Shown here one piece after another: positions 3,218 to 45,557 of a stretch of 64,000 nucleotides of DNA (positions within the stretch are counted from its first letter, which is position 1; the number at the start of each line of letters is the position of its first letter). This DNA comes from an uncultured Clostridia bacterium (GTDB lineage: Bacteria > Bacillota > Clostridia > UMGS1883). The translations under genes were made by a program, and so were the position numbers. Below the pieces are notes generated by a model, which ran no database searches, had not been told where the DNA came from, and worked only from the letters and a program-made list of their open reading frames with translations. The stretch covers positions 1 through 64,000 of the forward strand of contig CANQRB010000007.1 of NCBI GenBank assembly GCA_947626145.1, written 5' to 3'.

Positions 3218-5929
3218 ATGAAAAAAGGCGTAATTGCGGCCGCGGCCGCCTTTATTCTGACGGCGGCGGAACTTTCCGCCGAGGCTCAGGACTATGCCGC
3301 CTACCGTTCGGAGCTGGAGAACATACCCGTCGGCACGTCGGCCGCCGAGGTTAGGGGCGAAAACGGGCCCGGCTTTTTGCAGGCCGACTATACGGTCAGC
3401 GTTCCCACCGAGGGAATGTACAATATAAGCCTTGACTATGCCGCGGTGGAGAGTACCAACCGCTCTGTTTTGGTGGGCCTGAAGATAAACGGGGAATACC
3501 CCTTTGACGAGGCCGTCGAGACTGAGCTGGCACGGGTACACCGGGACGGCGGCCCCATAACGGAGGATGAAAACGGCAACGAGAGGGCCCCTCATCAGGA
3601 GCCGGTCTACAGTGAGCAGACCCAGATGCTGAAAAACACCTCCGGATATTACAGCGGGGCCTATGAGTTTTACCTTAAAGAAGGGGAGAACCTCATTACG
3701 GTCACTTCCGACGGGGCGGATTTCCGACTGCTGGGCGTAAGGGTTACTCCGGCGGAACGGACCGTTACCTACGGCGATTATGACGGGGCGGCCAAGGCCC
3801 CCTCCTCGGGGCAGCTTATAAAAATACAGGCCGAAAACGCTTCTCTCAAATCCACCTCCATGCTTTATCCCACCTATGACCGTATCAGCGCCGCCACCGA
3901 GGACTCCGGCGGAAGCGGTAACGACGCCGCAAAGATCAGGATAAACACCGCCGGCGGCGATATGTGGAAAAAGGCCGGCGAGTGGATGACATGGGAATTT
4001 GATGTTCCCGAGAGCGGCTGCTACAATTTGGGTATAAAATTCCGCCAAAACTATAAGGACGGCCTTTTCAACTGCCGTGACTTCTACATAGACGGCAAGC
4101 TGCCCTTCAGTGAGATGGCCGGTGTGACCTTCCCGTACGACAACGAATGGCAGACCGCCGAGATAACCGACAGCGAGGGTGAGCCCTGCCTGATATACCT
4201 GGAAAAGGGAAAGCACGAGCTTAAAGCGGAGGTGTCCATGGGCCCGCTGGCCGACACGCTCCGGCGTATGAACGAGTGTGTTCAGGAGCTGAACGATCTG
4301 TACTTAAAGATAATCATGATAACCGGCACCGACCCGGACAGCCATACGGATTTCTTTCTGACTGACAAGATAGAAGGTCTTGAGGAAACTTTGGCCGCCA
4401 ACCGTGATAAGCTCCGTGCCGAGCTGAAAAACATAGAGGCTGTCACCGGCGGCAGGGGCAGCGCCACCTCCGCGGTGGACACCCTGGCCGTGCAGCTCGA
4501 CCTCCTCTGTGACGAGCCCGAGGAGATACCCGCCCGGCTTTCGGCCTTTAAAAACAATATCAGCGCCCTTGGCACCTGGGTCATAGATATGCAGGAGCAG
4601 AAGCTCCAACTGGATTACATATACTTCCGTTCTCCCGACGTTCTGGCCCCAAAGACCTCGGTTGGCTTTTTCAGCCGTATGTGGTACAGCATAAGACGCT
4701 TTTTCGCCTCCTTTGACGACAGCACCGGCGCCGTCAGCGGCGGCGGCTCCGTCAAGGTGTGGCTCAGCGGCGCCGGCAGGGATCAGGCTCAGGTAATAAA
4801 AGACCTTATTAATGAGAGCTTCACTCCCGAGACCGGTATTCAGGTGGATCTTGAGTTGGTGCAGGGCAGTCTTATCGAGGCGACTCTGGCCGGAACGGGG
4901 CCCGATGTGGCCCTGCTGGTGGCGGAGGATCAGCCCGTGAATTTCGCCCTTCGTGGAGCCTTGCAGGATGTCAGCGTATTCGATACCTATAAGGAAGTGG
5001 AGGAGCGCTTCTACCCCTCGGCGCTGGAGCCCTTCCGTTTTAACGGCGGCGTTTACGCCCTGCCTGACACGCAGGTGTTTGATATGCTGTTTTACCGGAC
5101 TGACGTTTTTGAAAACCTGGGTATAAAGGCCCCTGACACCTGGGACGACTTCTATGACATACTGCCTGTCATTCAGCGCAGCAACCTTCAGATAACCACC
5201 ATGGATCTTTTCCCGACGCTTCTTTTCCAAAACGGCGGCTCCTACTATAACAGTGACCATACCGCCGCCCTGCTGGACAGTGACGAGGCGATAGAGGCCA
5301 TGGATACCTATACGGCCCTCTACCGAAACTATGGCTTCGAGGTAAAGACCGACTTCTACTCCCGGTTCCGCAGCGGCGAGCTCATCATGTCAATTCAGCC
5401 CTACCAGATGTACAACCAGCTTATCGCCGCCGCTCCGGAAATAAGCGGCCGCTGGGCCATGACTCCCATACCGGCCACAAAGACGGATCACGGCCTTGAC
5501 CGCAGCGCCGGCAGTACCGTAACCGGCACCATAATGCTTAAGTCCGCCAAGGATCCCGAGGCGGCCTGGGACTTTATGGAGTGGTGGAGCCGTGACGAGG
5601 TAAAGACCCGCTACGCCGTTGAAACCGAGGGGCTGTTGGGCCCCAGCGCCCGGTTCACTCCGGCAAATAAGAATGTACTGTCCATGCTGCCCTGGCCCGA
5701 GGCCCAGCTAAAGAGCCTTGAAGCCGCTCAAAGCAGCGTCCGGGGCATTCCCCAGATACCCGGCAGCTATTACACTGCCCGGGCCATACAAAACGGCTTC
5801 CGCAGCGTGGTGTACAACGGCGAGTCCGTGCGCAAGGCCCTCCGTGACCAGAACGAAATGATAAACTATGAAATCGCCAAGAAGCGGGCCGAGTTCGGCC
5901 TGTCGGCGGGAGGTGAAAATGATGAGTAA
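3218..5929 (+). CDS. Extracellular solute-binding protein with N-terminal carbohydrate-binding-like modules
   Basis: A 903-residue secreted protein, about twice the length of a normal sugar binder. Residues 1-24 are a signal peptide without a lipobox cysteine. Residues about 25-180 and 200-330 look like galactose-binding-fold modules. Residues 340-500 are mostly helical. From about 515 to the end is a family 1 solute-binding protein (ETGIQVDLELVQGSLIEATL, GTGPDVALL, FNGGVYALPDTQVFDMLFYR, TWDDFYDILP). It presumably captures oligosaccharides for the two permeases immediately downstream. It is the first gene after the promoter, and its last 11 bases overlap the next gene. The missing lipidation site is odd for a Gram-positive binding protein; retention may rest on its extra modules or an uncleaved signal. 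Substrate is not readable from sequence. Confidence 0.85.
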   Translation: MKKGVIAAAAAFILTAAELSAEAQDYAAYRSELENIPVGTSAAEVRGENGPGFLQADYTVSVPTEGMYNISLDYAAVESTNRSVLVGLKINGEYPFDEAVETELARVHRDGGPITEDENGNERAPHQEPVYSEQTQMLKNTSGYYSGAYEFYLKEGENLITVTSDGADFRLLGVRVTPAERTVTYGDYDGAAKAPSSGQLIKIQAENASLKSTSMLYPTYDRISAATEDSGGSGNDAAKIRINTAGGDMWKKAGEWMTWEFDVPESGCYNLGIKFRQNYKDGLFNCRDFYIDGKLPFSEMAGVTFPYDNEWQTAEITDSEGEPCLIYLEKGKHELKAEVSMGPLADTLRRMNECVQELNDLYLKIIMITGTDPDSHTDFFLTDKIEGLEETLAANRDKLRAELKNIEAVTGGRGSATSAVDTLAVQLDLLCDEPEEIPARLSAFKNNISALGTWVIDMQEQKLQLDYIYFRSPDVLAPKTSVGFFSRMWYSIRRFFASFDDSTGAVSGGGSVKVWLSGAGRDQAQVIKDLINESFTPETGIQVDLELVQGSLIEATLAGTGPDVALLVAEDQPVNFALRGALQDVSVFDTYKEVEERFYPSALEPFRFNGGVYALPDTQVFDMLFYRTDVFENLGIKAPDTWDDFYDILPVIQRSNLQITTMDLFPTLLFQNGGSYYNSDHTAALLDSDEAIEAMDTYTALYRNYGFEVKTDFYSRFRSGELIMSIQPYQMYNQLIAAAPEISGRWAMTPIPATKTDHGLDRSAGSTVTGTIMLKSAKDPEAAWDFMEWWSRDEVKTRYAVETEGLLGPSARFTPANKNVLSMLPWPEAQLKSLEAAQSSVRGIPQIPGSYYTARAIQNGFRSVVYNGESVRKALRDQNEMINYEIAKKRAEFGLSAGGENDE

Positions 5930-6887
5930 AATAAAGGAAAAACTGAAATGGGCCTTTCGGGTGTTTTTCCCGAAGCCGGTGAAGCAGACCAAGAACCTGA
6001 AAACCAGAATAGCCCAGAACAAGATAAGCTATGCCATGATAGCGCCGTATTTCATTCTCTTTACCGTTTTCACCGTCATACCCGTTATCGCGTCGATAGT
6101 ATTGGGCTTTACATATTTTAATCTTCTGGAACCGCCCAGCTTTGTGGGTCTGAGCAACTATATCTCCATTTTCCTCAATGACGAGATCTTCCTGCTGGCC
6201 GTCAAGAACACCATTATTTTTGCCTTTATTACCGGCCCCATAAGCTATATACTCTGCTTTTTCCTGGCCTGGCTCATCAACGATCTGCCCCGCTTCTGGC
6301 GGACGTTCATGACGCTGGTGTTTTACGCCCCGTCTTTGTCCGGCAATCTGTACATGATATGGCAGTTCATTTTCTCCGACGACCAGTACGGCCTTGTGAA
6401 TTCGTTCCTGATGACGTTTATGGATCTTGGGATAATCAAGGAGCCGATAAAGTGGTTCACCGATGAAAAATATATCATGATAGCCCTGATAATAGTCCAG
6501 CTCTGGCTGAGCCTGGGGGCGGGCTTCCTTGCCCTCGGAGCGGGCTTCAAGACCGTCGACCCCACCATATATGAGGCCGGGGCCATCGACGGCATCCGCA
6601 ACCGCTTTCAGGAGCTGATATACATAACCGTTCCGTCCATGAAGCGGCAAATGCTTTTCGCGGCGGTGATGCAGATATCCTCGTCCTTTGCGGTGGGCAA
6701 TATTTCCATCGCACTGTGCGGCTTCCCAAGCACCAACTACGCCGGACACACCATAATGACTCATATTTACGACTACGGCACAGTGCGCTACGACATGGGC
6801 TACGCCTGCGCCCTGTCCGCCATACTGCTGGTGGTAATGCTGATAATGAACAAGGTAATAACCTCATTGTTGATGGAAAAGGATTGA
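5919..6887 (+). CDS. Sugar ABC transporter permease (LplB/UgpA type)
   Basis: A 322-residue inner-membrane permease with six predicted transmembrane segments, the first at IAPYFILFTVFTVIPVIASI. The cytoplasmic EAA loop is EAGAIDGIRNRFQELIYITV. I place the start at the ATG at 5919, behind GGGAGGTG, giving an 11-base overlap with the binding-protein gene, so the two are translationally coupled. It is the first half of a heterodimeric carbohydrate permease. No ATP-binding subunit is encoded in this operon. Confidence 0.88.
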   Translation: MMSKIKEKLKWAFRVFFPKPVKQTKNLKTRIAQNKISYAMIAPYFILFTVFTVIPVIASIVLGFTYFNLLEPPSFVGLSNYISIFLNDEIFLLAVKNTIIFAFITGPISYILCFFLAWLINDLPRFWRTFMTLVFYAPSLSGNLYMIWQFIFSDDQYGLVNSFLMTFMDLGIIKEPIKWFTDEKYIMIALIIVQLWLSLGAGFLALGAGFKTVDPTIYEAGAIDGIRNRFQELIYITVPSMKRQMLFAAVMQISSSFAVGNISIALCGFPSTNYAGHTIMTHIYDYGTVRYDMGYACALSAILLVVMLIMNKVITSLLMEKD

Positions 6888-6898
6888 GGTGAGGGATA

Positions 6899-7765
6899 AT
6901 GAAAAAAGTAAGAGCAAAAAAGACAAAGAAGGTCAACCGTTCCCTTGGCGGCAATATAATACTTTTCGCCTTCCTGGCGCTGCTGGGGGCGTTTATGGCC
7001 TTGCCCGTGGTGTATACGGTGGTTCAGGCCTTCAAGCCCATGGAGGAGCTTTTCGTGTTCCCGCCGCGGTTCATGGTGGTAAATCCCACCCTCAAGAATT
7101 TCCGCCTCATAGGCCAGCTCACGAACAACCTTTGGGTGCCCTTTTCCCGCTATGTGTTCAACAGTGTTTTCGTCAGCATCGTCGGCACCGTGGGCAACGT
7201 GTTCATCGCGTCCATGGCCGCCTATCCGCTGGCAAAAATAAACTTCCCCGGCCGCAAGATACTGTTTAAGATGGTCACAGTGGCCCTGCTGTTCACCGGC
7301 GGCGTGCTGGGACTGGCCCAGTACATAATCATGGCCAAGCTGCATATGATAAACACCTATTGGGCCCTGATACTGCCCTCGGTGGCCTCTACCATGGGGC
7401 TGTTCCTGATGAAGCAGTTCATGGAGGGCATCAATGATTCCATAATCGAGGCCGCCCGCATCGACGGCATGAACGAGTTCGGCATCTTCTGGCATATTGT
7501 CATGCCCAACGTCAAGCCCGCCTGGCTCACCATGATAATCTTCGCCTTTCAGGGTATGTGGGGCATGACCGGCGGCAACTTCGTCTATAAGGAGAGCCTC
7601 AAGCTCTTTCCCACGGCTCTGGCCCAGATACAGGCCGGCGGCATAGCGAGGGCCGGAGTGGCCGCGGCGGCCGGGCTGATAATGTTTATCCCTCCGGTGG
7701 TGCTTTTCCTTGTGACCCAGTCCAGTATTATGGAGACCATGGCTCACGCCGGGATAAAGGAGTGA
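6899..7765 (+). CDS. Carbohydrate ABC transporter permease (MalG type)
   Basis: A 288-residue partner permease starting 11 bases after the previous stop, behind GAGGTGAGGG. It opens with a basic KKVRAKKTKKVNRS cytoplasmic tail and a transmembrane segment (ILFAFLALLGAFMALPVVYTV). The EAA motif is EAARIDGMNEFGIFWHIVMP followed by NVKPAW, typical of the second permease of CUT1-family importers. It should pair with the permease at 5919. Confidence 0.9.
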   Translation: MKKVRAKKTKKVNRSLGGNIILFAFLALLGAFMALPVVYTVVQAFKPMEELFVFPPRFMVVNPTLKNFRLIGQLTNNLWVPFSRYVFNSVFVSIVGTVGNVFIASMAAYPLAKINFPGRKILFKMVTVALLFTGGVLGLAQYIIMAKLHMINTYWALILPSVASTMGLFLMKQFMEGINDSIIEAARIDGMNEFGIFWHIVMPNVKPAWLTMIIFAFQGMWGMTGGNFVYKESLKLFPTALAQIQAGGIARAGVAAAAGLIMFIPPVVLFLVTQSSIMETMAHAGIKE

Positions 7766-7770
7766 CGGCC

Positions 7771-9174
7771 ATGAAAAAAACTGTGGTTATATTTGTCCTG
7801 CTTCTGTGCCTGACGGCCACGGCTTCGGCGGAATACCGCTACAACGGATTTGACGAGCCGGTTGCCACCGCCGACAGCTTTACTCCGGTAAAGTCCGTCA
7901 GCGGCATGATCCTTGGCATAGGCGACTTTAAGGATCCGGCTGACCTGTTTGCCGATGAAAACGGCCTTGTCTATGTTCTGGACTGCGGCAATGACCGCAT
8001 AGTCGTCCTCAACAACGACCTGACCTTTAATTCCGAGATAGTTCCGGCGGAATTCGACCTGGCCGGCTCTGGAGGCATTTTTGCCGCCGACGGCCTGATA
8101 TACGTGGCCCACACTGAGGACGAGAAAATTTACGTTATAAATACGGCGGGGGAGACCGTCAGGGAAATATCCCGACCGGATTCGGCCCTACTGGGCAATG
8201 CGGCCTTTACTCCGGTGAAGGTTCTGGCCGACGGCATAGGCACTGTGTATATGCTCTCCGCCAACTCCACTCAGGGCGCCTATATGATAGGCGGCGACAA
8301 CAGCTTTTTGGGCTTTTTCGGCAGGAATGACGTTGTCCTCAACTTCCGCCGTATACTTGAGCTGGCCTCCCGCCGGTTCGCCAGCGACGAGCAGCGGGCC
8401 AAAATGGAGAATTTCGTGCCGGTGGAGTTTGCCAACTTTGACATTGACAGCGAGGGCTTTATCTATACCGTCACCGCATACAGCGAAAATCCCGAGCAGA
8501 GCGAAATGATTAAAAAGCTCAACCCCATGGGCGGCAACGTATTGAGCAAGCTATCGTCCCGCACCTGGGGCGACAATCCGGTGAATGGCGCCTATCCCAC
8601 CTCGTACACGGATATAGCCGTGGACGAAAGGGGCTTCAGCTATGCCCTTGACGGAGTGGGCGGCAAGATATTCTGGTATGACAACAACCTCAGCCAGATA
8701 AGCGTTTTCGGCGGCAGCGGCAGCGTCACCGGCACCTTTACCGGCCCGGCGGCCATTGAAACTCTCGGCGACCGGGTGCTGGTGCTGGACAATGTCAAGA
8801 ACAGCATAACCGTCTTTGAAAAGACCCGCTTCGGCGCTCTCATGACGGACGGGCGGGAGCTGTACAACAGCGGCCGCTTCAAGGAGAGCCGGGACATCTT
8901 TCGGGAGATAATCACCATGGATCCGGACTGTGACTTTGCCTGGGGCGCCCTTGGCGCGGCGGTTTACGAGGACGGCGATGCCGAGACCGCCAAGGAGTAT
9001 TTTGAAAGAAGCATGACGGCGTCGGAGAAGTATTCCGAGGTCAAAAAGGAGCTCCGGGGCCGGTGGATGAAGTCCCACTTTGCCCTGATATTCATGGGTA
9101 CGCTGCTGCTGGCTCTTATCGTGATCGCCGCCTCCAAGCTGGTGACGGCGAAGCTGAAGGAGGGGAGAATATAA
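7771..9174 (+). CDS. Secreted NHL-like beta-propeller with TPR and C-terminal membrane anchor
   Basis: A 467-residue protein. The ATG at 7771 is chosen over an upstream GTG at 7762 because AAAGGAG sits about 8 bases before it. A signal peptide (KKTVVIFVLLLCLTATASA) is followed by NHL/6-bladed propeller repeats (PADLFADENGLVYVLDCGND, IYVAHTEDEKIYVINTAGET, YALDGVGGKIFWYDNN). A TPR-like segment follows at about residues 350-420 (YNSGRFKESRDIFREIITMD, then WGALGAAVYEDGDAETAKEY). The C-terminus is one transmembrane helix (FMGTLLLALIVIAA). The propeller and TPR should therefore face outside. It overlaps the next gene by one base (TAATG). Its role is unknown; the neighbourhood suggests a partner or sensor of the importers. 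Confidence 0.75.
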   Translation: MKKTVVIFVLLLCLTATASAEYRYNGFDEPVATADSFTPVKSVSGMILGIGDFKDPADLFADENGLVYVLDCGNDRIVVLNNDLTFNSEIVPAEFDLAGSGGIFAADGLIYVAHTEDEKIYVINTAGETVREISRPDSALLGNAAFTPVKVLADGIGTVYMLSANSTQGAYMIGGDNSFLGFFGRNDVVLNFRRILELASRRFASDEQRAKMENFVPVEFANFDIDSEGFIYTVTAYSENPEQSEMIKKLNPMGGNVLSKLSSRTWGDNPVNGAYPTSYTDIAVDERGFSYALDGVGGKIFWYDNNLSQISVFGGSGSVTGTFTGPAAIETLGDRVLVLDNVKNSITVFEKTRFGALMTDGRELYNSGRFKESRDIFREIITMDPDCDFAWGALGAAVYEDGDAETAKEYFERSMTASEKYSEVKKELRGRWMKSHFALIFMGTLLLALIVIAASKLVTAKLKEGRI

Positions 9175-9821
9175 TGCAGAAAACCGGATTTTACGCGGGT
9201 ATGAGCAAATACCTCTACCCCCTCTATATCCTCATCCACCCGGTGGACGGCTATCGGGAGCTGAAAAACAACAAAAAATACTCCCTCACGGCGGCCAATG
9301 TCATTCTGGCCCTGTGGGTGCTTCAACGCATACTTGACTGGGGCAGCTCCGATTTCGATTTCAAGAGCCGGGCCGCTCTCGAATCTCCGGTAAATCTGCC
9401 CCGGATATTGCTGACCACGGTGGTGCTGTTCGCCATCGCCTGCGTTTCCAACTGGTGCTTCTGCACCCTTATGGACGGCAAGGGGCGGTTCAAGGAGATA
9501 TGGACGGCCTGCGCCTACGCTCTGCTGCCTTATGTGCTGCTGGCTCTGCTTAAGGTGCCGCTGTCCCATGCCATGGTGCTGGATGAGGCTGTGTTCCTCG
9601 GCTATATGAACGCTATAGGCCTGCTGTGGACCGCCTTTCTCATTTTTGAGGCTGTGTACGTGGTTCACGATTACACCGTGCCCAAAGCGGTCATGGCTCT
9701 GGCGCTGACCGCGCTGGGAGTGCTGATAATCGCCTTTTTGGTGATTTTGGTCACCGGGCTGGCCAGCCAGATATACTCGTTCTTTAAGACCATATATTTT
9801 GAGATAAAGCTCAGGCTTTAG
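9174..9821 (+). CDS. Yip1-family integral membrane protein
   Basis: A 215-residue polytopic membrane protein with about five hydrophobic segments. The N-terminal text (LYILIHPVDGYRELKNNKKY) is typical of bacterial YIP1 proteins, which often begin with a P-x-x-x-F/Y-x-x-ik segment before the first helix. The start is the ATG at 9174, directly overlapping the preceding stop. Bacterial Yip1 proteins have no settled function. Its fixed place between the propeller-TPR gene and the DUF5696-like lipoprotein gene argues that the three work together with the importers. Confidence 0.75.
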   Translation: MQKTGFYAGMSKYLYPLYILIHPVDGYRELKNNKKYSLTAANVILALWVLQRILDWGSSDFDFKSRAALESPVNLPRILLTTVVLFAIACVSNWCFCTLMDGKGRFKEIWTACAYALLPYVLLALLKVPLSHAMVLDEAVFLGYMNAIGLLWTAFLIFEAVYVVHDYTVPKAVMALALTALGVLIIAFLVILVTGLASQIYSFFKTIYFEIKLRL

Positions 9822-9834
9822 GAGGCGGTGGAAG

Positions 9835-12003
9835 ATGAAAAAAGCGATATTGGCCCTCGGGGCGGTGCTTCTCATGACCTCCTGCGGCCAGCGGGCGGAG
9901 CTGCCCGAGACGGCGGAGCCTCTCGCGAAACCCGCTTCCCAAGGGGCGTTGTCCATAGAAAACAGCCGGTTTATCCTTGAGGTGGACGAGGCCGGGGCGC
10001 TTAAGGTCACCGAAAAGGCCAGCGGAACGGTGTTCACCTCAACTCCCGAGGACGCCGGAGAGGATCCCGTTGCCGCGGGAATTAATATGAGCCGCCTGAA
10101 CAGCGAGTTTTATGTTACCCTCATCAAGTCTGACGGGAGCACGGCCGAGCTCAACAGCTTTGACGCCTCCGAGTCAAAGGACGGAGTCAGCGTCGAAAGG
10201 AACGGCGACACCGTCAAGGTCAGCTACCTTTACCCCGACCAGAACGTTATGCATTCGGTGGAGTATGCTCTTGACGGGGAGGGCTTTTCGGCGGCGGTGA
10301 GGTTTTCGGAGCTGAACGAGCAGTTCGGCAGAATATCCGGCGACGACTGGGGCTTTTACACCATAGGCGTATTGCCGTGGTTCGGTGCGGCGGGCCCCGA
10401 AAGCACGGGATACACCGTGGTGCCGGACGGCAGCGGAGCAATTATAAACCACAATAACAATAAGTCCTCCTACGCGGCCTACGCTCAGGAAATTTACGGT
10501 AGAGATCCGTCCCTTAATCTGGAAACCAAAACTCTCGAGACAAAAAACGCCCCCTTCCCGGTTTACGGCAGCGTGGGGGAGGGTCGGGCCTTTGCCGCCA
10601 TAATTGACGGGGACGCCGCCGAGGCCACGGTCTACGCCGAGACCGGCGGAACCAACACAAGCTATAACAATGTTTACGCGGCCTTCAACATCCGCCGCAG
10701 CGACAGCGTCACCCGCACGGTGTCCAATGGCTACGGCGGCGACAGTACCCTTGGCCGCACGGCTGTTTCCGCAAACGTGCCCGAGGACGGGGAAATAAGG
10801 ATAGAGTACAAGCTTTTCTCCGGCGAAAATCTGAGTTATGTTGATTTGGCAAACGCATACAGGGACTATCTCGTGGACAGCGGCCTCGAGGCTTCGGACA
10901 CCGGCGCTCCCCTTTATCTCAGTATGACGGGCGGAGTTTCCGACACGGCTTACACCCTTGGTATACCCCACCGCACTGTTGTGCCAGTCACGGACTTCGA
11001 CGCGGCGGGGGAGATAATAGCCGACCTCAGGGATAACGGAGTGGAGAATATCGCCGTCCGCTTCCGGGGCTGGCAGAAGGGCGGCGAAAACACTAAGGTG
11101 CCCAAAAATACAAAGGCCGAGGGCAAGCTGGGCGGAAACGATGGCCTCCGGCGGCTCCTTGACTCCGGGGCGATGATATTCCCCGAGCTGGAGCTGGTAC
11201 GCTTTTACAAGGGCGGCAACGGACTGAACCTGCAAAGCGACTGCGTAAGGGCACTTTCCGGCAGCGCGGCCTATGTCTATGAGTATGCCGTCAACACCGG
11301 CGCAAAGGACACCGAGGAGGAGCCCTGCCGGCTGCTCAATCCGACGAAGGCCGTCGAGGTCTGGGAGCGCTTCGGCAAAAACGGCTTTGAAAACGTTTCC
11401 CTCGGTTCCGTGGGCGACACGCTGCCATCGGAATTTAACGGGGACGCCCCGCTGACCCGAGCGGAAACGGCGGAGCTCTACGGCGGCATATCCGACGCCT
11501 CCGGTTCTGCCATGGTCTGCGGCGGCAACAGCTATGTGCTGCCCTGGGCGGACTACATCTGCGCTATGGAAAGTGAGGCCACGGGCTACGATTTGGAGGA
11601 CGGCTCCATACCCTTCTATCAGATAGCCCTCCACGGTCTGCGCTCCTACAGCGTGCCGCCCATCAACCTTACGGCCGACACCAACCGGGCCATGCTTAAG
11701 GCCCTTGAGACCGGCAGCTCTCTGTGCTACAGTGTCAGTGCCGGGGAGGTATCCGCCACGGGAGACGCCGCCCCCTATGCTTATCTCAGAGACACGGTGC
11801 TCAGTCAGGCTTCCGCCGCCCAGCCCGTGCTTGAGGCGGTCAGCGGCGATCGGATAGTCAGCCATGAAAAGCTGGGAGAGGAGCTTTACAGAACGGGCTT
11901 TTCCTCCGGTGCGGCCATATATGTCAACTACGGCTCAGCTCCGGCCATTGCCGGCGGCAGGGAAATAGCCGGCGAAAGCTTTTTGTTCGAGGAGGGGAGA
12001 TAA
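9835..12003 (+). CDS. DUF5696-like lipoprotein, possibly a degenerate glycosidase fold
   Basis: A 722-residue lipoprotein: signal peptide ending in the lipobox LLMTSC, so anchored on the outer face of the membrane. Residues about 40-370 look like a beta-sandwich of the galactose-mutarotase kind (SRFILEVDEAGALKVTEKAS, YTVVPDGSGAIINHNN). Residues 375-690 look like an alpha/beta barrel (VENIAVRFRGWQKGG, MIFPELELVRFYKGGNGLN, QIALHGLRSYSVPPINLT). This layout resembles glycosidases such as GH101 or GH36, but I cannot point to catalytic acids. I recognise it as the DUF5696 type that accompanies sugar importers in Paenibacillus and Clostridia. The stop codon abuts the next start. Confidence 0.75.
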   Translation: MKKAILALGAVLLMTSCGQRAELPETAEPLAKPASQGALSIENSRFILEVDEAGALKVTEKASGTVFTSTPEDAGEDPVAAGINMSRLNSEFYVTLIKSDGSTAELNSFDASESKDGVSVERNGDTVKVSYLYPDQNVMHSVEYALDGEGFSAAVRFSELNEQFGRISGDDWGFYTIGVLPWFGAAGPESTGYTVVPDGSGAIINHNNNKSSYAAYAQEIYGRDPSLNLETKTLETKNAPFPVYGSVGEGRAFAAIIDGDAAEATVYAETGGTNTSYNNVYAAFNIRRSDSVTRTVSNGYGGDSTLGRTAVSANVPEDGEIRIEYKLFSGENLSYVDLANAYRDYLVDSGLEASDTGAPLYLSMTGGVSDTAYTLGIPHRTVVPVTDFDAAGEIIADLRDNGVENIAVRFRGWQKGGENTKVPKNTKAEGKLGGNDGLRRLLDSGAMIFPELELVRFYKGGNGLNLQSDCVRALSGSAAYVYEYAVNTGAKDTEEEPCRLLNPTKAVEVWERFGKNGFENVSLGSVGDTLPSEFNGDAPLTRAETAELYGGISDASGSAMVCGGNSYVLPWADYICAMESEATGYDLEDGSIPFYQIALHGLRSYSVPPINLTADTNRAMLKALETGSSLCYSVSAGEVSATGDAAPYAYLRDTVLSQASAAQPVLEAVSGDRIVSHEKLGEELYRTGFSSGAAIYVNYGSAPAIAGGREIAGESFLFEEGR

Positions 12004-12906
12004 ATGGCGAAGAAAAAGAAAAGATCCGCCATAGCCCGGCGCAGAGCCCGGGCGGGCTTCCTGTTCATTCTGCCCTGGCTCATCGGCTTTATATTCCTTT
12101 TCCTGCGGCCTCTTATCATGGCCTTCTTCTACTCCTTCAACAAGGTGCTCATCACTCCCGAGGGACTGAATTTCCAGGCCGTGGGCTGGGAAAACTTTGT
12201 CTATAAGTTCCGTGACGACATTTACTTTTTCCGTGACACCTTCTGGCCGGGACTGTCAAAATTCGTCATTGAGGTGCCGATCTGCGTTATATTCAGCCTG
12301 TTCATCGCCATAATACTGAACCAGAAGTTCCGTGGCCGCACTCTTTCGAGGGCCATCTTCTTCCTTCCGGTGATAATCGCCTCGGGCATAGTGATACAGA
12401 TGCTGCGCAGCTTCGGCATGGATCCCTCCGCCGCGGCGGAGAACGCCTATGTGTTCCAGGGCGGGGGAGTGGCGGAAATTTTGCAGAGCGCCGGTCTGCC
12501 CCAGGGTATCTGCGATTTCCTGACGGAGGTCAGCAACCGCATCTTTGACATAGTCTGGATGAGCGGCGTTCAGATAATACTCTACCTTTCCGGCCTGCAA
12601 AGCATACCCCGCAGCGAGTATGAGGCCGCCGAGATAGAAGGGGCCACCGCCTGGGAAATCTTCTGGAAAATAACCTGGGTGCGCATTTCTCCCATCACAC
12701 TTGTGGTGTTGGTTTACTCCCTCATTGATTCCTTCACGAACGTGAGCAACCCTGTGATAAAGTTCGTGTATGAGGAGTATTCCATTCGGGGCAATCTTGG
12801 TGGCAGCAGCGCCCTTGGTCTGCTGTACTGCCTAATTGCGTTCCTCATCATCATTGTGGTATACGCCATAGCGTCCCGCAAGGTGTTCTATGTCAACGAG
12901 AATTAA
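12004..12906 (+). CDS. Sugar ABC transporter permease, second system (UgpA/LplB type)
   Basis: A 300-residue permease starting at the base after the DUF5696 stop, with its ribosome site GAGGAGGGGAG inside the previous gene. A lysine/arginine-rich start (KKKKRSAIARRRARAG) precedes six predicted membrane spans. The EAA loop is EYEAAEIEGATAWEIFWKIT. It is the first permease of a second complete importer and is not a close copy of the one at 5919. Confidence 0.88.
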   Translation: MAKKKKRSAIARRRARAGFLFILPWLIGFIFLFLRPLIMAFFYSFNKVLITPEGLNFQAVGWENFVYKFRDDIYFFRDTFWPGLSKFVIEVPICVIFSLFIAIILNQKFRGRTLSRAIFFLPVIIASGIVIQMLRSFGMDPSAAAENAYVFQGGGVAEILQSAGLPQGICDFLTEVSNRIFDIVWMSGVQIILYLSGLQSIPRSEYEAAEIEGATAWEIFWKITWVRISPITLVVLVYSLIDSFTNVSNPVIKFVYEEYSIRGNLGGSSALGLLYCLIAFLIIIVVYAIASRKVFYVNEN

Positions 12907-12922
12907 AGGGGGGTAAGGAAAA

Positions 12923-13861
12923 TTGAAAAGACTGAAAAAATACGCCTGGGCCCTGTGCCGCTTTCTGCTCATATTCGGCCTGAGCTTTGTAATTCTTTAT
13001 CCCATGCTCCAAACCCTGTCCAAGACATTCATGCCCATAGAACAGTATTCCGATCTGAGCGTGGTGTGGATACCATTGTCCCTGACGCTGGATAACATCA
13101 AAAACGCCATAAAATATATGGATTTCGGCAACGCCCTTTGGCAGAGCGTCATACTCAGTGTTTCCGCCAGCCTCCTCCAGCTTGTGAGCTGCTCGCTGGC
13201 CGGCTATGGCTTTGCCCGGTTCAAATTTCCCTTCAGGGGCTTTCTGTTCCTGATGGTCATACTTACGATCATTATCCCCACCCAGATAATTTTCCTCCCC
13301 ACCTTCATGGAGTACCGGTTCTTTGACTTTTTCGGCATCGGACGGCTCATCGCCCTTTTCACCGGAGAAAATTATGTGGAATACACCTTCAATCTCATCA
13401 ACACCCGGGCCACCTTCTGGATACCTTCCATTTTGGGTGTGGGCCTGCGCAGCGGCCTGTTCATCTACATATTCCGTCAGGCCTTCCGCAACATTCCCAC
13501 CGCCCTTGAGGAGGCCGCCGAGATAGACGGCTGCGGGCCCCTGCGCACGTTCCTGAGCGTTATGGTGCCCAACGTCCGCACCTCGGCCATAACGGTGTTC
13601 CTGTTCTCCATGGTTTGGCACTGGAATGAGTACACTCTCACCCGCACGTTTTTCCCGACAAAAAACGCCCCTCTGGCGGTCAAGCTCAAGACCGCCATCG
13701 AGGCTCTTCAGGCCGGCAGCGAAACCCGATTTGACGTTTCGCTCCAGATGGGCGTCAGCTACGCTTCGGTGCTGCTCTTCCTGCTGCCCATAGTGCTGCT
13801 GTACATCTTCGCCCAGCGGTACTTTATGGAGGGCATAGAAACCACCGGCCTGACCGGCTGA
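12923..13861 (+). CDS. Carbohydrate ABC transporter permease, second system (MalG type)
   Basis: A 312-residue permease. The start is a TTG at 12923, behind an AAAGGGGGGTAAGG purine tract; no in-frame ATG fits better. The EAA motif is EEAAEIDGCGPLRTFLSVMV followed by PNVRTS. It carries a longer central extracytoplasmic loop than usual (YRFFDFFGIGRLIALFTGEN) between the third and fourth membrane segments. It pairs with 12004, and the binding protein follows 15 bases later. Confidence 0.88.
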   Translation: MKRLKKYAWALCRFLLIFGLSFVILYPMLQTLSKTFMPIEQYSDLSVVWIPLSLTLDNIKNAIKYMDFGNALWQSVILSVSASLLQLVSCSLAGYGFARFKFPFRGFLFLMVILTIIIPTQIIFLPTFMEYRFFDFFGIGRLIALFTGENYVEYTFNLINTRATFWIPSILGVGLRSGLFIYIFRQAFRNIPTALEEAAEIDGCGPLRTFLSVMVPNVRTSAITVFLFSMVWHWNEYTLTRTFFPTKNAPLAVKLKTAIEALQAGSETRFDVSLQMGVSYASVLLFLLPIVLLYIFAQRYFMEGIETTGLTG

Positions 13862-13876
13862 CAGGGAGGACAAAAA

Positions 13877-15190
13877 ATGAAAAAGAAAATATTTTTACTG
13901 CTTACAGCGGCGGCGCTGCTGCTGTCGTCATGCAAATACTCAAACAGCTCCCGCTCCTCGGCGGTCCACAACGACCCCTTTGACACAAGCCTGCTGTCGG
14001 TTGAGGAGCTTGAGGAGCCTAATGTCACCATGGACATTTACTGGCCCTTTGAGCAAAATGTGGCCGCCGGCGACCTCTACACCCAGGAGGCCATTGACGC
14101 CTTTGAAAAGAAATTCGGCGGCAAGGTAACCGTCAACGTCATAGGCTTTAATGCCGGTATTGAGGTTATGCAGCGCAATCTGGCCAGCGGCGACGTCAGC
14201 GACCTGCTGTTCGTGGACGGCAACATCACATTCCCAAAATATGCCCTGTACAGCTACATCACGCCGATTACGGATTTTGTGAAGTACGACATCGGCAGCA
14301 AGTGGCTGGATCAGGCGAGTATGGAAAACTTCAAGTTTGACGGCGAGTATTACGGCTTTACGAATTATATAGTTAATCAACCCTATATTATCGCCTACGA
14401 CAAGGCTCCCTTTGTGGACAACAATCTGCCTGCCCCTGTGGAGCTCTACGAGGCGGGGGAGTGGACCTGGGACAAATTTCTCGAATATGTGGACTTCTTC
14501 ACCTCGGACACCAATCTGGACGGCAAGATAGACCGCTGGGGTCTTGGCCCCAGGTACAAGAACCAGAATTTCGGCTACGCCGGGGGTGCCATGCCCATAA
14601 TCGAGCTTGGCAACGGCCTTCTCCAAAGCAACTTTGACACTCCCGTCATGCGCCAATATTTCGACTTTGTCCGCAAGCTCCAGCGTATCCAGTCGCGCAG
14701 CGCCACCAACGACGGCTGGCTCGGGGCCGGAGGCGTTATGTACTCCGAGGCCGGACTTGCCCAGATAGGGCTGGTGGACACCGAGGACGGCAAAAAGGCC
14801 GACCCCAACCACGATTTTGTGCCGATACCCAGCATTGACGGCTCTCTGCCCACAACTCCCGTGTGGGACACGGCTCTTGTTATCCCCAACGGCAGCCGCA
14901 ATCCCCAGGGGGCGGCGGTGCTGGCCGCCATGATAATGGAGACCAAGGAGCGCCGGGTCAATGAGGAAAACGTCAAGATGTATACTCCCGAACAGCTTGC
15001 GCGGTATGACGAAATGATGACGAGCATCGTCCCCCAGCGAAAGGGGAACGATGTCTATACCGGCGTCACCACTAATTACGGCGACGGAGAGGCCCTGAAC
15101 GGCTCGCCTCCCGCCACCATAATTGAGACATACCGTGATGTGGTGGACAGCGAGGTTGCGTCGTTCAACAAGATTTTTGAGGATGATTAG
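13877..15190 (+). CDS. Extracellular solute-binding lipoprotein, second system
   Basis: A 437-residue family 1 solute-binding lipoprotein: signal peptide with lipobox LLLSSC, then a bilobed binder (YTQEAIDAFEKKFGGKVTVN, GDVSDLLFVDGNITFPKYAL, EAGEWTWDKFLEYVDFF). It ends with a 4-base overlap with the convergent AraC gene and no visible terminator between them. As the last gene of the nine-gene operon it completes the second importer. Unlike the operon's first binder it is a normal-sized lipidated one. Confidence 0.88.
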   Translation: MKKKIFLLLTAAALLLSSCKYSNSSRSSAVHNDPFDTSLLSVEELEEPNVTMDIYWPFEQNVAAGDLYTQEAIDAFEKKFGGKVTVNVIGFNAGIEVMQRNLASGDVSDLLFVDGNITFPKYALYSYITPITDFVKYDIGSKWLDQASMENFKFDGEYYGFTNYIVNQPYIIAYDKAPFVDNNLPAPVELYEAGEWTWDKFLEYVDFFTSDTNLDGKIDRWGLGPRYKNQNFGYAGGAMPIIELGNGLLQSNFDTPVMRQYFDFVRKLQRIQSRSATNDGWLGAGGVMYSEAGLAQIGLVDTEDGKKADPNHDFVPIPSIDGSLPTTPVWDTALVIPNGSRNPQGAAVLAAMIMETKERRVNEENVKMYTPEQLARYDEMMTSIVPQRKGNDVYTGVTTNYGDGEALNGSPPATIIETYRDVVDSEVASFNKIFEDD

Positions 15191-15993
15191 ATTTTTATGA
15201 ATTTCCGGCGGAACTCCAGCGGGGTTTCGCCGGTTTCGGCTTTGAACAGCCTTGAAAAATGGCTGGGCGAGACGACGCCTATGGATTCGCCGATCTCCTC
15301 GATTGACATATTTGAGGTCTGGAGCAGCCGCCGGGCCACGTCTATCTTGTAGTCGATGATGTACTGCTTCGTGCTCTTTCCGCAGATGCTGTTGAAAACC
15401 AGCGTCAGGTACCCGCGGGAGATGCTCAGGTGCCGGGCGATGTCCGACACGTTTATTCCGTCGGAAATGTGTACCTGTATGTAGGCCACGGCTTTCTTGA
15501 AATAGGTCTCCAGCGGTATTTCCGCCCGACGCACACGCCCGCTCATGGTGGAGGCCAGATTCCAGAAGGCTCCGGTCAGGGCGTACTCGTCGGTGTTGCC
15601 CAGTGAAACCAGCTCCGTCAGGGCCGCGCCAAGGGCCCCGCTGTCGTCGTTGTAGATGGGATTTTCCGCCGAAAGACCGCAGTCCTTCAGCAGCGCGTCT
15701 ACTTTTTCGCCGTAAAATTCCACCCACCGGTACTCGAAGGGATCGAATTTGTCCGCCACGTAGATCGCGACCACGTCGGGCGTTATCAGAAAGGCCTGGC
15801 CGGCCTGTACGTTATAGCTCACGTCGTCACCCGTAAATACCCCCTTGCCGGAGTATACATAGTGCATCAGATAGGTCTGTCGGGCGAATTTGGGCTCGTG
15901 AAAGCCCGGCTGACACTTGCGGTAGCCGTACTGTATGACATTGAAATCCATGTTCGTCCGGTTGCTGTTTATGTAATTTACATGGTTGTGCAT
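15187..15993 (-). CDS. AraC-family transcriptional regulator
   Basis: A 268-residue regulator with an N-terminal cupin-type sensor (YGYRKCQPGFHEPK, VYSGKGVFTGDDVSYNVQAG) and a C-terminal double helix-turn-helix (GINVSDIARHLSISRGYLTL, then SIEEIGESIGVVSPSHFSRL). It is paralogous to the regulator at 44661; both carry the NFNVxQYGYRKCxPGF-like opening and a DPFEYRWxEFYG segment. It converges with the importer operon and is transcribed away from the surface-enzyme operon at 16302. It has its own promoter at 16026-16054. Regulation of either neighbour is inference. Confidence 0.88.
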   Translation of the reverse strand: MHNHVNYINSNRTNMDFNVIQYGYRKCQPGFHEPKFARQTYLMHYVYSGKGVFTGDDVSYNVQAGQAFLITPDVVAIYVADKFDPFEYRWVEFYGEKVDALLKDCGLSAENPIYNDDSGALGAALTELVSLGNTDEYALTGAFWNLASTMSGRVRRAEIPLETYFKKAVAYIQVHISDGINVSDIARHLSISRGYLTLVFNSICGKSTKQYIIDYKIDVARRLLQTSNMSIEEIGESIGVVSPSHFSRLFKAETGETPLEFRRKFIKI

Positions 15994-16301: not shown

Positions 16302-19300
16302 ATGAAAAAACTGCTCAGGCGATTGTCCGCCGCGCTTATGGCCCTGCCCCTGACGCTCGGGGTAATGCCGACGGTAAGCCTTGCCGCGGACAGGACGGTC
16401 GACGACATTCTTGCCGACGCTTTTGTTCTTGATTTTGAAGGAAATCTGCCCACCGGCGTCAGGGCCGAGGGCAATGTGGAATATGTGGACGGAGTGTCCG
16501 GACGGGCCGCCAAGTTCGACGGCAACGGCTCATATCTTATCCTGCCGGACAACTTCAACGCCGGTGTCAACGACTTCACAATGGGTATGTGGGTTCGCTT
16601 CGACGGGCTGACCCCCGACGTGTGGCAGAGGGTGTTTGACGTCCACGGCATAAATCATCGCACAATGTTCTTCGGTATGTGGCAGTACAACGGCAGCAAC
16701 AATGTGCGCTTCTGTATCGAGGACGACGAGGGCGAAGAACACGCCAGCGCCTTTGGAGTTTTTCAACTGGGCGAGTGGGTGAATTACACCGTAACCCAGA
16801 GCGAGGGCGTCCGCACCCTTTACATAAACGGCCGTGAGGCCGCCTCCTCCGGGGCCACCAATATCGCTCAGGATCTGGGAGAAACGGTGAACAACTATAT
16901 CGGCCACAGCATATACAACGGTGTGCCCACGGCCGATTTCAACGGCGCGGTAGATGAGTTCTTCTTTACCAAAGAGGCCATGACCGCCGATCAGGTGCTT
17001 GAGCTGGCCATCCGCAACATGGACGACGAGCAGGCGGTGGAGGCTCACGCCTCGCTGACATATCTGAACTTTAACGGCTCCGACGCCGAAAATATGTTTG
17101 ATTATTACGAATTTGACGACGGCCGCCGCTCCGTCACGTGGAGCTCCAGCCGACCAGACCTGCTGACCGTGAACGGCGTTACTTCGGGCGCTCAGGTTGA
17201 TGAGCTCACCGAGGTCGTTATCACCGCCACCGTCGCCGCAGGAGAGGCGAAAAGGGAGCTCAATTACAGCTTCGTCATAACTCCCGACCTCACCGTTGAG
17301 GAAATGTCCATAGAGGATGTGGAAAAGCGGGAACTCCGCCGGACGAAGGCGGTCAATTATGACACCGAAAAAATATATCTCATAAAAAACACGGCTACCG
17401 GTCAATATCTTTCCCAGGGCGGCGACGCTCTGGCCATGACCGACGACGGCGCGGCCGAGGAGGCAAAGTGGAGACTGGCCGAAAGCTCCCATAAAAACGC
17501 TTACGCGGTTTTCAACGTTTCCGACGGCCTCTGCCTTGACGTTTTGGACTACGGAAATCTGCCCGGCACACAGGTGCTTCTTTACCGGGGCGGCAAGGGT
17601 ATAAACGAGGACTGGTACTTTATAGATATGGGCGACGGCGTCGCCATGCTGAACTATAACGGAAACAATTTCTTTAACGCCGAAAACGGTTCATTTACCA
17701 TCGAGAGCCTGGAGGACGCCCAGAGCTGGGAGCTGGTCGAGACCGAAAGGGGCGTCCGTCCCATAGGACGCTTTGTGGACGATGAGAACGCTTCAAGCAA
17801 TCTTGCGGCCATGAAGGAGGGCGTGTTCTACACACTCAAGCGCAGCGGCAGCTATATGTCCACCGATGTGAACGGCAACCTTTGCGCCTCGGGCTATGAC
17901 GGCGACAAGTCCCAGTGGTTTTTGACAATGGTGGCCGACAAATATTACACCATCACCAACAAGGCCGACGATAAAAACCTGAACATAAACCGGGCCTCCG
18001 TTGACCCCGGCGCGGGAGTTATAACCTATGACCGGGGTACGGCCCAGAACGAGCAGTGGGGCTTTATCGAGACCGATGGGGGCTATGCCATCACCGGTGC
18101 GGCAAATAAGAACTACCTCTGCGGCTATGGCGGATCCTTCCGTATGGAGACTTCTCCTCAGGTATGGACCATTGAGGAGGTGGGCGCCGCCGACGGCGAC
18201 GGAGGCAGGCAGGTGAGCGCCCTCGTCACCGATTATCTGCCCGAGATAACCGAGACCGTCGATGAGGCCACCGGCCTTATCCATCCCGGAATTACGGTCA
18301 ACGCCGAGGATATCCGCCGTATGCAGCGTCATGTTCGGGCAGGGGACGAGCCCTGGGCCAGCGCTTTCAACACTCTGGCGGCGATATCGAGCTCAGGCGT
18401 CAACCCACGTATCCACGCCTGGGACGGCGACGGCGACACCACCAAGCTTGTGGTCGAGACCCGGCTCAAAAACCTCCGCGCCGACGCCGGCACAGCGGCC
18501 AATCAGGCGCTGATGTATGTCATAACGGGCAACGAGGCCTACCGTGCCAACGCCATAAATATAATCCGCAAGTGGTCGGAGCTGAGGGACGTTTACGCCA
18601 CCCTTGGCAGCGACCGTATAGACCACGGCGCCATAGCTTACAAAATGAGTTTTGCCGCCGAGCTTATCAAATACAGCTCCTGCCAGAACAGCGAGCTCGT
18701 ATGGACGTCTCAGGACAACGCCATGTTCGTGGGTATGCTGGAGACCATCAACCCCAAGCACAACAGAGCCTATCACTGGATGAACCAGCACGGCATCTGC
18801 AACGAGGGCACCATGGCCAGCGCTATTTTCCGCAACGACCTTGAGCAGTATAAGACCGCCGTGGTCCGCACCACGGTCAATCCCGAGGGCGGCGGAGAGT
18901 CCGCCGTGGCCGGCGGTGCGATAGTGCAGGTGTTCAAGCTTATAAAGCAGGACGAAATGCTTGGCGAGGATCTGGACGAGCCGGTCATAACCCATCTCGA
19001 GATGGGCCGCGATATGGGCCACGCCTACGGCAACAACGCCGCCCTCAGCGCCTGCGCCATGATGACCTTCAAGCAGAACACCCTCGTTGATCCGGTCACC
19101 GGTGAATATACTGACTCCGCCGACGGCGTAAACGTCTTTGAATACGCCGATCACAGGCTACTGGCGGGCTGCGACATTATTTCCCGTTACAATCTGGGGC
19201 TGGATGTGCCCTTCCCCAGCGTTGACGTGGGCGGCTACTATTACGGCGACATCAACGACACCAACCGCGGCAACCTCTATCAGGCCATAGGGCCGGTGTA

Positions 19301-19868
19301 CTGCTACTACAAATACATCGCCAAGGCCGACATGACGGACGAGAGGCTCAAATACGTGGCCAAGGCCTATGAGGCTCGCTTCCCCGAGGGGCAGAGCGAG
19401 GACAACATCGGTCTGTCAACCCTGCTCTACACTCCCGACGAGGCCGCCGTGGACAAAATGCCCGTTCAGGATACCAGTTCCGCCGACACCTGGCAGAGCG
19501 AATTTTTCACCGCCGTGAATTACGGCAGTGTCACCGCCATGGAGGAGGACGGAGTTTCCTTCGCCAGAGTTAGCCTCGCGGACGGCGGCTCCCGCTTCGC
19601 CCACACCACGGTTTATTACGCCCCGGCCGCTCAAAGTAAGGTGCGGATCAGGGTAAGAACTCACGGCGAAGTCAAGGTGACACTCACAAACGAGCATCTT
19701 ATGTACGCTCCCTTTGTGGAGGCTGTCATCCCCGACACCATGGGCGAGTGGGAGATCGTGGAATTCGACCGCCAGCCCGAGGCTGCCATGAACCAGCGCA
19801 TAATGTTCTTCACCTTCGAGGGTGACGGCGGCGAGCTGGACATTGACTATATGAAGTTTACTGATTGA
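16302..19868 (+). CDS. Secreted alginate-lyase-superfamily enzyme with LamG and ricin-fold modules
   Basis: A 1188-residue secreted protein. Order: signal peptide (to about 28, ending GVMPTVSLAA); LamG/ConA-like module (about 40-245, VLDFEGNLPTG, FNGAVDEFFF); Ig-like segment with WSSSRPDLLTV (250-350); ricin-type trefoil repeats (355-640); alpha/alpha-toroid alginate-lyase-like domain (655-1040); C-terminal beta-sandwich (1060-1188). The enzyme domain has the family opening HPGITVNAEDIRRMQ, an NQHG-type motif (WMNQHGICNEGTMASAIFR) and HLEMGRDMGHAYG. Proteins of this fold cleave uronate polymers such as alginate or glucuronan by beta-elimination; the substrate here is unknown. It is closest to the enzyme at 32394 and heads the operon that includes the SLH giant, 13 bases downstream. 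Confidence 0.8.
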   Translation: MKKLLRRLSAALMALPLTLGVMPTVSLAADRTVDDILADAFVLDFEGNLPTGVRAEGNVEYVDGVSGRAAKFDGNGSYLILPDNFNAGVNDFTMGMWVRFDGLTPDVWQRVFDVHGINHRTMFFGMWQYNGSNNVRFCIEDDEGEEHASAFGVFQLGEWVNYTVTQSEGVRTLYINGREAASSGATNIAQDLGETVNNYIGHSIYNGVPTADFNGAVDEFFFTKEAMTADQVLELAIRNMDDEQAVEAHASLTYLNFNGSDAENMFDYYEFDDGRRSVTWSSSRPDLLTVNGVTSGAQVDELTEVVITATVAAGEAKRELNYSFVITPDLTVEEMSIEDVEKRELRRTKAVNYDTEKIYLIKNTATGQYLSQGGDALAMTDDGAAEEAKWRLAESSHKNAYAVFNVSDGLCLDVLDYGNLPGTQVLLYRGGKGINEDWYFIDMGDGVAMLNYNGNNFFNAENGSFTIESLEDAQSWELVETERGVRPIGRFVDDENASSNLAAMKEGVFYTLKRSGSYMSTDVNGNLCASGYDGDKSQWFLTMVADKYYTITNKADDKNLNINRASVDPGAGVITYDRGTAQNEQWGFIETDGGYAITGAANKNYLCGYGGSFRMETSPQVWTIEEVGAADGDGGRQVSALVTDYLPEITETVDEATGLIHPGITVNAEDIRRMQRHVRAGDEPWASAFNTLAAISSSGVNPRIHAWDGDGDTTKLVVETRLKNLRADAGTAANQALMYVITGNEAYRANAINIIRKWSELRDVYATLGSDRIDHGAIAYKMSFAAELIKYSSCQNSELVWTSQDNAMFVGMLETINPKHNRAYHWMNQHGICNEGTMASAIFRNDLEQYKTAVVRTTVNPEGGGESAVAGGAIVQVFKLIKQDEMLGEDLDEPVITHLEMGRDMGHAYGNNAALSACAMMTFKQNTLVDPVTGEYTDSADGVNVFEYADHRLLAGCDIISRYNLGLDVPFPSVDVGGYYYGDINDTNRGNLYQAIGPVYCYYKYIAKADMTDERLKYVAKAYEARFPEGQSEDNIGLSTLLYTPDEAAVDKMPVQDTSSADTWQSEFFTAVNYGSVTAMEEDGVSFARVSLADGGSRFAHTTVYYAPAAQSKVRIRVRTHGEVKVTLTNEHLMYAPFVEAVIPDTMGEWEIVEFDRQPEAAMNQRIMFFTFEGDGGELDIDYMKFTD

Positions 19869-19881
19869 TGGAGGGAAGGAT

Positions 19882-41199: not shown

Positions 41200-41234
41200 A
41201 TAAGTGAAAAACGTCAAATTTGGAGGTAGGAAAA

Positions 41235-43250: not shown

Positions 43251-43276
43251 AAGCCTCAGGAGTAAAGGAGAATTTT

Positions 43277-44647: not shown

Positions 44648-44660
44648 CGGGGGTGCAAAG

Positions 44661-45458
44661 GTGGAGCGCTGCAATTATATAAACTACGACCGGCGCAATA
44701 TTGACTTCAACGTGGTTCAGTACGGTTACCGCAAATGTGATCCCGGCTTCGGCGAAAAGCCGAATATATGGAGAAATTTTCTGCTGCATTATGTGTATGA
44801 CGGCAAGGGCGCTCTTTATGCCGACGGCAAGCGCATAGCCGTGGGAAAAAACCAGGCTTTTATGATTTTCCCCGGCCAGATAGCCAGCTACATCGCCGAT
44901 GAGGATGACCCCTTCGAGTATCGTTGGATCGAGTTTTACGGCGACGGGATGAAGCGGCTCCTGCCCGATGTGGGGGTTTCGGTGACAAATCCCATAATCG
45001 ACGACGGCGACGGCCGTGTCGGCGCCGCCCTGAAGAATATAGTCGACCGTGGCCCGATGGACAACGCGGTTCTAATGTCACACTTTTGGATGCTGGCCGA
45101 GGCGCTGGGCTCGGGACGCACGGACGACGTGAGCCAGAGGGAACGCTACGTCCAAAAGGCGGTGGACTTTATTCAGGCCGGCATCGGCCGGAAAATAACT
45201 GTGGAGGACGTTTGCCGTGAGCTGAATATCTCCCGCAACTATTTTACGGACATTTTCACGAAGTCTATGGGCATATCGCCGAAAAGGTACATCGTCAGCC
45301 GGCACATGGAAATGGCCATGGAGCTTCTGCGCCGCACGAAGTACAGCGTCAGCGAGATAGCCTATATCGTGGGCTACAACAATCCCATGGAGTTTACCAA
45401 GGCCTTTGCGAGGTTCGCCGGAATGTCGCCCAGCGAATACAGAAAAAGCTCGTTTTAA
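44661..45458 (+). CDS. AraC-family transcriptional regulator
   Basis: A 265-residue regulator with a GTG start behind GCGGGGGTG. The cupin-type sensor (VYDGKGALYADGKRIAVGKN, MIFPGQIASYIAD) and double HTH (KITVEDVCRELNISRNYFTD, SVSEIAYIVGYNNPMEFTKA) are intact. It is a paralogue of the regulator at 15187 (shared YGYRKCxPGF and DPFEYRWxEFYG). As last gene of the 41235 operon it is a candidate for reading the family 2 repeats upstream of that operon and in the 48.8 kb divergent region, but the assignment between AraC genes is open. Confidence 0.88.
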   Translation: MERCNYINYDRRNIDFNVVQYGYRKCDPGFGEKPNIWRNFLLHYVYDGKGALYADGKRIAVGKNQAFMIFPGQIASYIADEDDPFEYRWIEFYGDGMKRLLPDVGVSVTNPIIDDGDGRVGAALKNIVDRGPMDNAVLMSHFWMLAEALGSGRTDDVSQRERYVQKAVDFIQAGIGRKITVEDVCRELNISRNYFTDIFTKSMGISPKRYIVSRHMEMAMELLRRTKYSVSEIAYIVGYNNPMEFTKAFARFAGMSPSEYRKSSF

Positions 45459-45490
45459 AAAATGGTGCAGACCGTTCAAGGGCATAAAAG

Positions 45491-45524
45491 AAAAACCGTC
45501 TTTTTCTCGTAAAAAGGCGGTTTT
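45491..45524. terminator. Bidirectional terminator between convergent genes
   Basis: AAAAACCGTCTTTTT and AAAAAGGCGGTTTT pair with G-U wobble around a short loop. A-runs and T-runs on both sides let it serve both the AraC gene (plus) and the 1075-residue gene (minus). Confidence 0.75.
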
Positions 45525-45557
45525 CCATATTAATGCAGTTTCGATTTTACAGTCCCG

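Follow-up and report, generated by a model that had tools for sequence, protein, structure and literature searches.

A conserved operon joining two permease pairs to propeller-TPR, Yip1 and DUF5696 companions in Bacillota and Chloroflexi

Introduction

The window analysed here is a stretch of 64,000 nucleotides from an uncultured Clostridia bacterium (contig CANQRB010000007.1, positions 1 to 64,000 of the forward strand), and at positions 3218-15190 it carries nine same-strand genes that abut or overlap by a few bases. Between a very large binding protein (S*) with one permease pair (F1, G1) and a second permease pair (F2, G2) with an ordinary binding protein (S2) lie three companions: an exported NHL beta-propeller and TPR protein (N), a Yip1-domain membrane protein (Y) and a DUF5696 lipoprotein (D). 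We believe this operon encodes one conserved glycan-uptake machine, built from two CUT1-type permease pairs, a shared MsmX-type ATPase and three obligate companions, and we put the probability of this reading at roughly 60%. The membership and order of the gene set, its co-inheritance, the fusion of N to Y, the GH129 fold of D with its lost catalytic pair, and the stand-alone ATPase are all read directly from the sequences; glycan uptake, with a cargo specific to each locus, would be the natural reading of the neighbouring genes.

Results

One gene order in 104 loci

DUF5696 was sought in 391 Clostridia-class genomes, of which 96 gave a match above the cut-off, and some 80 loci were annotated with profiles built from the window's own proteins. 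Loci with a full-length DUF5696 gene show the order S* (about 1000 aa)-F-G-N-Y-D-F-G, the deviations being ends of stretches or contigs and a few displaced or broken genes. A phylum-wide sample brought in other Bacillota, and an independent bait, one single S* protein, led to 41 named loci, with the same module in Paenibacillus, Cohnella, Clostridium, Hungatella, Blautia, other Lachnospiraceae and three Chloroflexi (L160-L162); at one weak Actinomycetales match to this bait the module was absent. The gene-order survey of Clostridia and Paenibacillus that an earlier note on this DNA had proposed thus yields 104 loci, in Clostridia, other Bacillota including Paenibacillus, and Chloroflexi, where S*-F1-G1-N-Y-D-F2-G2 is complete, contiguous and in order, with both permease pairs present in every one, which rules out a local assembly artefact or chance. 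The same arrangement can be followed in existing annotation. Plasmid pNP243 of Butyrivibrio fibrisolvens lists binder, permease, permease, NHL, YIP1, DUF5696, permease, permease and two binders, while a Paenibacillus cellulosilyticus record has an ATPase gene first and then the module, with a 2,160-base 'YIP1' gene of the size of an N-Y fusion.

Nor are the companions mostly found without importers, the outcome that the earlier note had named as telling against its proposal. With a profile for the module-type Yip1, 103 matches were obtained from 79 of the 391 genomes, none of them falling between E 1e-39 and 1e-6, and for 99 of these 103 genes a full-length DUF5696 gene lies at most 2.5 kb away on the same strand; in both the DUF5696 and the Yip1 searches the best few candidates per genome were scored, and the Yip1 count is that of the module subfamily only. 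Of the four exceptions, G037 has an insertion inside a DUF5696 gene, those in G162 and G102 lie where a contig ends, and in G251 there is one place for which only three candidates were scored by the DUF5696 search. Linkage of the companions to the importer is thus strongly supported. The 19 short DUF5696-like proteins (560-600 aa) all lie away from any module Yip1, which places the short forms outside the system. As for the G037 insertion (L037; G037:C1:501900-521800), it consists of two reverse-strand genes and is probably a mobile element that broke this DUF5696 copy.

Gene calls in the window

The features of the operon and its convergent neighbour are as follows.

3218-5929, + strand: S*, large binding protein (Pfam SBP_bac_1, E 2.5e-27)
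5919-6887, + strand: F1, MalF/UgpA-type permease of pair 1 (NCBIfam permease GlcT, E 7.9e-14; EAA loop EAGAIDG)
6899-7765, + strand: G1, MalG/UgpE-type permease of pair 1 (Pfam BPD_transp_1 above cut-off, and NCBIfam; EAA loop EAARIDG)
7771-9174, + strand: N, exported NHL beta-propeller with TPR and a single C-terminal membrane helix (Pfam NHL, weak TPR)
9174-9821, + strand: Y, Yip1-domain membrane protein (Pfam Yip1, PF04893, 56.5 bits against a cut-off of 28.6)
9835-12003, + strand: D, DUF5696 lipoprotein with a GH129-superfamily fold (Pfam DUF5696, E 1.9e-137)
12004-12906, + strand: F2, permease of pair 2 (Pfam BPD_transp_1 above cut-off; EAA loop EAAEIEG)
12923-13861, + strand: G2, permease of pair 2, TTG start (Pfam BPD_transp_1 above cut-off; EAA loop EAAEIDG)
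13877-15190, + strand: S2, second binding protein of ordinary size, lipoprotein (Pfam SBP_bac_8, E 2.7e-13)
15187-15993, - strand: convergent AraC-family regulator (Pfam AraC_binding and HTH)

F1 has no Pfam match and was picked up by NCBIfam as the permease GlcT. The earlier note's account of a nine-gene operon, with two sets of binder, permease and permease around three companions and no ATP-binding subunit, is borne out by the domains and coordinates, and no ATPase gene lies within the operon. Its description of the genes as overlapping or abutting also holds, with corrected starts for F1, N and Y: F1 starts at the ATG at 5919 rather than at the longest-open-reading-frame start at 5868, and Y at the ATG at 9174 rather than at 9063, both with a ribosome-binding site, while the start of N is most likely the ATG at 7771. 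The stop codon of N and the start codon of Y have one base in common (TAATG). An Rfam scan found no RNA families in the window. The convergent AraC-family protein is a plausible local regulator of the operon.

Both pairs have the features of a CUT1 importer, namely a binding protein, MalF- and MalG-type permeases, and an EAA-type loop in all four permeases, the last of which indicates that both pairs can couple to an ATPase. In phylogenies of the F permeases (208 sequences) and of the G permeases (208), F1 separates from F2 and G1 from G2 with no sequence misplaced and support of 1.0, and each half remains a clade when other sugar permeases are added, including ones from elsewhere in this genome; two members of the G1 clade that look foreign come from L063 and L064, where the G1 gene is displaced. 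Between the trees of seven proteins (S*, F1, G1, N, D, F2 and G2) the distances correlate with r of 0.81-0.93, as expected for a set inherited together. The second, ordinary binding protein is optional across loci and mobile in position, being upstream in 38, downstream in 36 and on both sides in 1 of the 104.

D has a GH129 fold and has most likely lost its activity

The structural model of D (predicted local distance difference test score 90.2, predicted template-modelling score 0.90) shares its whole-length fold with the GH129 enzyme NagBb, an alpha-N-acetylgalactosaminidase (5wzn), and with the GH129-like DagB (5opq, over 566 residues), both at Z 29.4 with 544-566 residues aligned; GH101 comes next in the structural search, at Z of about 18-19. 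A profile search agrees (DagB, E 4e-18; NagBb, 6e-10). Pfam at E<=0.1 gave D only DUF5696 and one unrelated family below its cut-off, with no match to PF11308, and none to PF11308 was found in the genome at E 1e-20.

The catalytic Asp486 of DagB corresponds to Asp435 of NagBb (PMC5698469). We aligned 78 importer-linked D proteins with 24 relatives, of which 16 are short DUF5696 proteins, 6 are intermediate and 2 belong to the GH129 family (L178, L179), and it is through the last two that the Asp and Glu positions were bridged to NagBb, rather than being read from NagBb itself. In all 24 relatives outside the module both columns are invariant, at a spacing about as expected for the GH129 pair. 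Only 3 of the 78 importer-linked copies, those of L087, L088 and L103, have both residues and 43 have neither carboxylate; an Asp stands at the nucleophile position in 24, and with a two-residue shift tolerated complete pairs still number only 4. In the window's D the two positions are Ser525 and Cys562, and across the importer-linked family no column reaches more than 91% conservation of a carboxylate. Since the pair is lost in 75 of 78 importer-linked copies and kept in 24 of 24 relatives, importer-linked DUF5696 is most likely a pseudo-glycosidase, and D probably serves in binding or assembly, not in catalysis. Unlike the GH129 enzymes, it is moreover membrane-anchored and always found with an importer. 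The earlier note's 'glycosidase-like' lipoprotein thus stands as to fold, while the catalytic pair is gone in nearly all copies, and we rejected the default assignment of D as an active GH129 enzyme on this loss.

The DUF5696 relatives outside importers (L113, L114, L180-L197; 560-620 aa) retain the Asp and Glu in the GH129 catalytic positions, and these short and intermediate proteins may be active, uncharacterised glycosidases.

N and Y as partners

In 42 of the 104 loci N and Y are fused into a single polypeptide. By parsimony the fusion state has changed 12-13 times, at least 7-10 of them on well-supported branches, and such repeated independent changes argue for a physical partnership. 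In a model of the fused protein of L035 (the same two scores 93.6 and 0.86), the propeller spans residues 32-383 and the TPR region 385-445, followed by a long helix from 449 and then the Yip1 helices. A Foldseek search with this model had only propeller proteins among the matches listed and barely probed the Yip1 part. By sequence, the module Yip1 profile has no relative in the PDB; the Pfam Yip1 match exceeds the curated cut-off in all 37 module members tested.

The large binding protein

S* proteins, at about 900-1000 aa, comprise a signal peptide, beta domains resembling carbohydrate-binding modules (CBM) 35 and 6, a helical region, an amphipathic helix at about 481-500 and a C-terminal SBP_bac_1 domain (527-796). 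Pfam matches to the CBM35 or CBM6 families occur in the front part of some members, and in a profile search of the PDB the second front domain matches a cycloisomaltooligosaccharide glucanotransferase (5x7g). The closest PDB relative of the binding domain by profile is Lin1841, which we do not use as proof of substrate. The amphipathic helix that precedes the binding domain is conserved (mean moment 0.45; background 0.23, 95th percentile 0.46), and since a lipobox-like motif occurs in only 4 of 104 S* proteins, this helix may hold S* at the membrane.

A stand-alone ATPase

The genome (2.44 Mb, 95% complete) encodes a single MalK/MsmX-type ATPase, recognised from its OB domain and lacking an adjacent permease gene. 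This protein carries D77, R104, E110 and K154, four residues reported to be conserved in multitask ATPases able to replace MsmX (PMC7658222). Such an ATPase is present in 40 of 40 module genomes tested, mostly as one copy, and in 7 loci an MsmX-like ATPase gene lies directly upstream of S*, at the head of the operon. The shared MsmX-type ATPase posited by the earlier note is thereby supported, and the genome's stand-alone enzyme would be available to the permeases.

Neighbouring genes and cargo

Carbohydrate-active enzymes (CAZymes) near module loci are varied (GH10, GH16, GH26, GH94, GH38), and the window's own neighbours include ricin and LamG domains, an alginate-lyase-like protein, GH28 and GH43. 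Naming one cargo from neighbour genes was dropped, the neighbours being too varied. The cargo is most likely oligosaccharides from complex polysaccharides, differing between loci. The glycan-capture role proposed in the earlier note fits the binders, the nearby CAZymes and the CBM-like domains, from which it is inferred.

Just before the operon, at 90-2702, lies a gene for a BspA-type leucine-rich repeat protein with Big_2 domains. Downstream, 16302-28701 encodes two very large exported proteins, one of 1188 aa with LamG, ricin and ulvan-lyase-type trefoil domains, the other of 2939 aa with domains repeated in tandem as well as fn3 and S-layer homology domains. Positions 41220-53456 hold the alginate-lyase-like protein, which has ricin domains, GH28, GH43 and a phosphomannose isomerase-ROK kinase fusion. 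In the Paenibacillus cellulosilyticus locus (L201, 15201-24076), several LLM-class flavin oxidoreductases and two further binding proteins follow the module and hint that the cargo there is unusual and possibly not a polysaccharide.

Discussion

If the operon does encode one machine, its parts can be given provisional places. N and Y would form a membrane scaffold in which the Yip1 helices sit in the membrane beside the permeases and the propeller and TPR face outward. S*, through its CBM-like and binding domains, and the pseudo-glycosidase D would retain a glycan or oligosaccharide on the outside of the cell and hand it on to the permease pairs, the second often with a further binding protein, and the shared MsmX-type ATPase would drive both F1/G1 and F2/G2.

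Several observations weigh against this reading. The correlation among the trees stems partly from the shared ancestry of the host genomes, neighbouring genes vary widely between loci, a second binding protein went undetected in the vicinity of 29 of the 104, and in some genomes the set is split, with S*-F1-G1 apart from N/Y-D-F2-G2-S (L121, L122, L125, L126), so that the halves may act as two importers. The operon might then hold two separate importers for related glycans that are merely co-regulated, with N, Y and D belonging to the second only, and the separate binding proteins and the distinct EAA loops of each pair are consistent with this. Nonetheless, S* is kept in 11 of 11 tested genomes with split or rearranged sets, N-Y-D lies between the halves in 104 loci, and for every permease of half 1 there is a partner in half 2 that comes from a single ancient lineage, and we consider two independent importers unlikely. 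Less likely again is that N-Y, with D, serves not as a capture scaffold but as a sensor or regulator that reports the glycan, gating the permeases or signalling inside. An outside propeller and TPR joined to a polytopic Yip1 domain would be compatible with signalling, and some loci have a regulator or a histidine kinase in the neighbourhood, but these regulator genes vary while N-Y-D do not, and Pfam found no cytoplasmic signalling domain in N, Y or D. The residual case for a D that is still active, trimming the glycan where it enters the importer, and resting on its fold and on the few copies with a complete pair or a nucleophile Asp, seems to us very improbable given how consistently the pair is missing beside importers and kept outside them. 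One integrated uptake machine remains the account we favor.

By the sequence features tested, the module would be a CUT1-like importer and, taken as a whole, an undescribed variant. The MsmX-powered CUT1 importers of B. subtilis (AraNPQ, GanSPQ, YtcPQ-YteP, YesOPQ) have no ATPase of their own (PMC7658222, PMC5730181). The module is like them in combining a binder and two permeases that have EAA loops with a shared, stand-alone MsmX-like ATPase, and unlike them in having two permease pairs in one obligate set, a 900-1000-aa binder with CBM-like domains, and three obligate companions for which those importers have no described counterpart. No description of the module was found in the open-access literature searched, most subscription journals lying outside that scope, nor did we find an open-access paper mentioning DUF5696 or a relevant one on Yip1 or NHL/beta-propeller proteins with ABC (ATP-binding cassette) importers.

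In the SusCDEF systems of Bacteroidota, surface glycan-binding lipoproteins work with an importer. The module resembles Sus-type uptake in this respect by analogy only, and unlike SusCDEF it involves no outer membrane or TonB. We tentatively suggest that it could represent a distinct importer class, a Gram-positive counterpart of a surface glycan-capture complex, with two permease pairs in one assembly, an outside propeller-TPR/Yip1 scaffold and a glycan-binding dead glycosidase.

Regardless of its class, this gene set is strictly conserved in Bacillota and Chloroflexi, among bacteria of the rumen, gut and soil, yet its products are annotated only one by one, under 'permease', 'YIP1 family', 'NHL repeat' and 'DUF5696'. 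If the proposed machine is real, DUF5696 and a subfamily of bacterial Yip1 proteins would gain a function, and the module would offer a clear example of a glycosidase recruited as part of a transporter. The module makes the capture and import of large glycans in Gram-positive bacteria, and the need for two permease pairs, open to experiment, and correct annotation would improve the prediction of glycan use from genomes.

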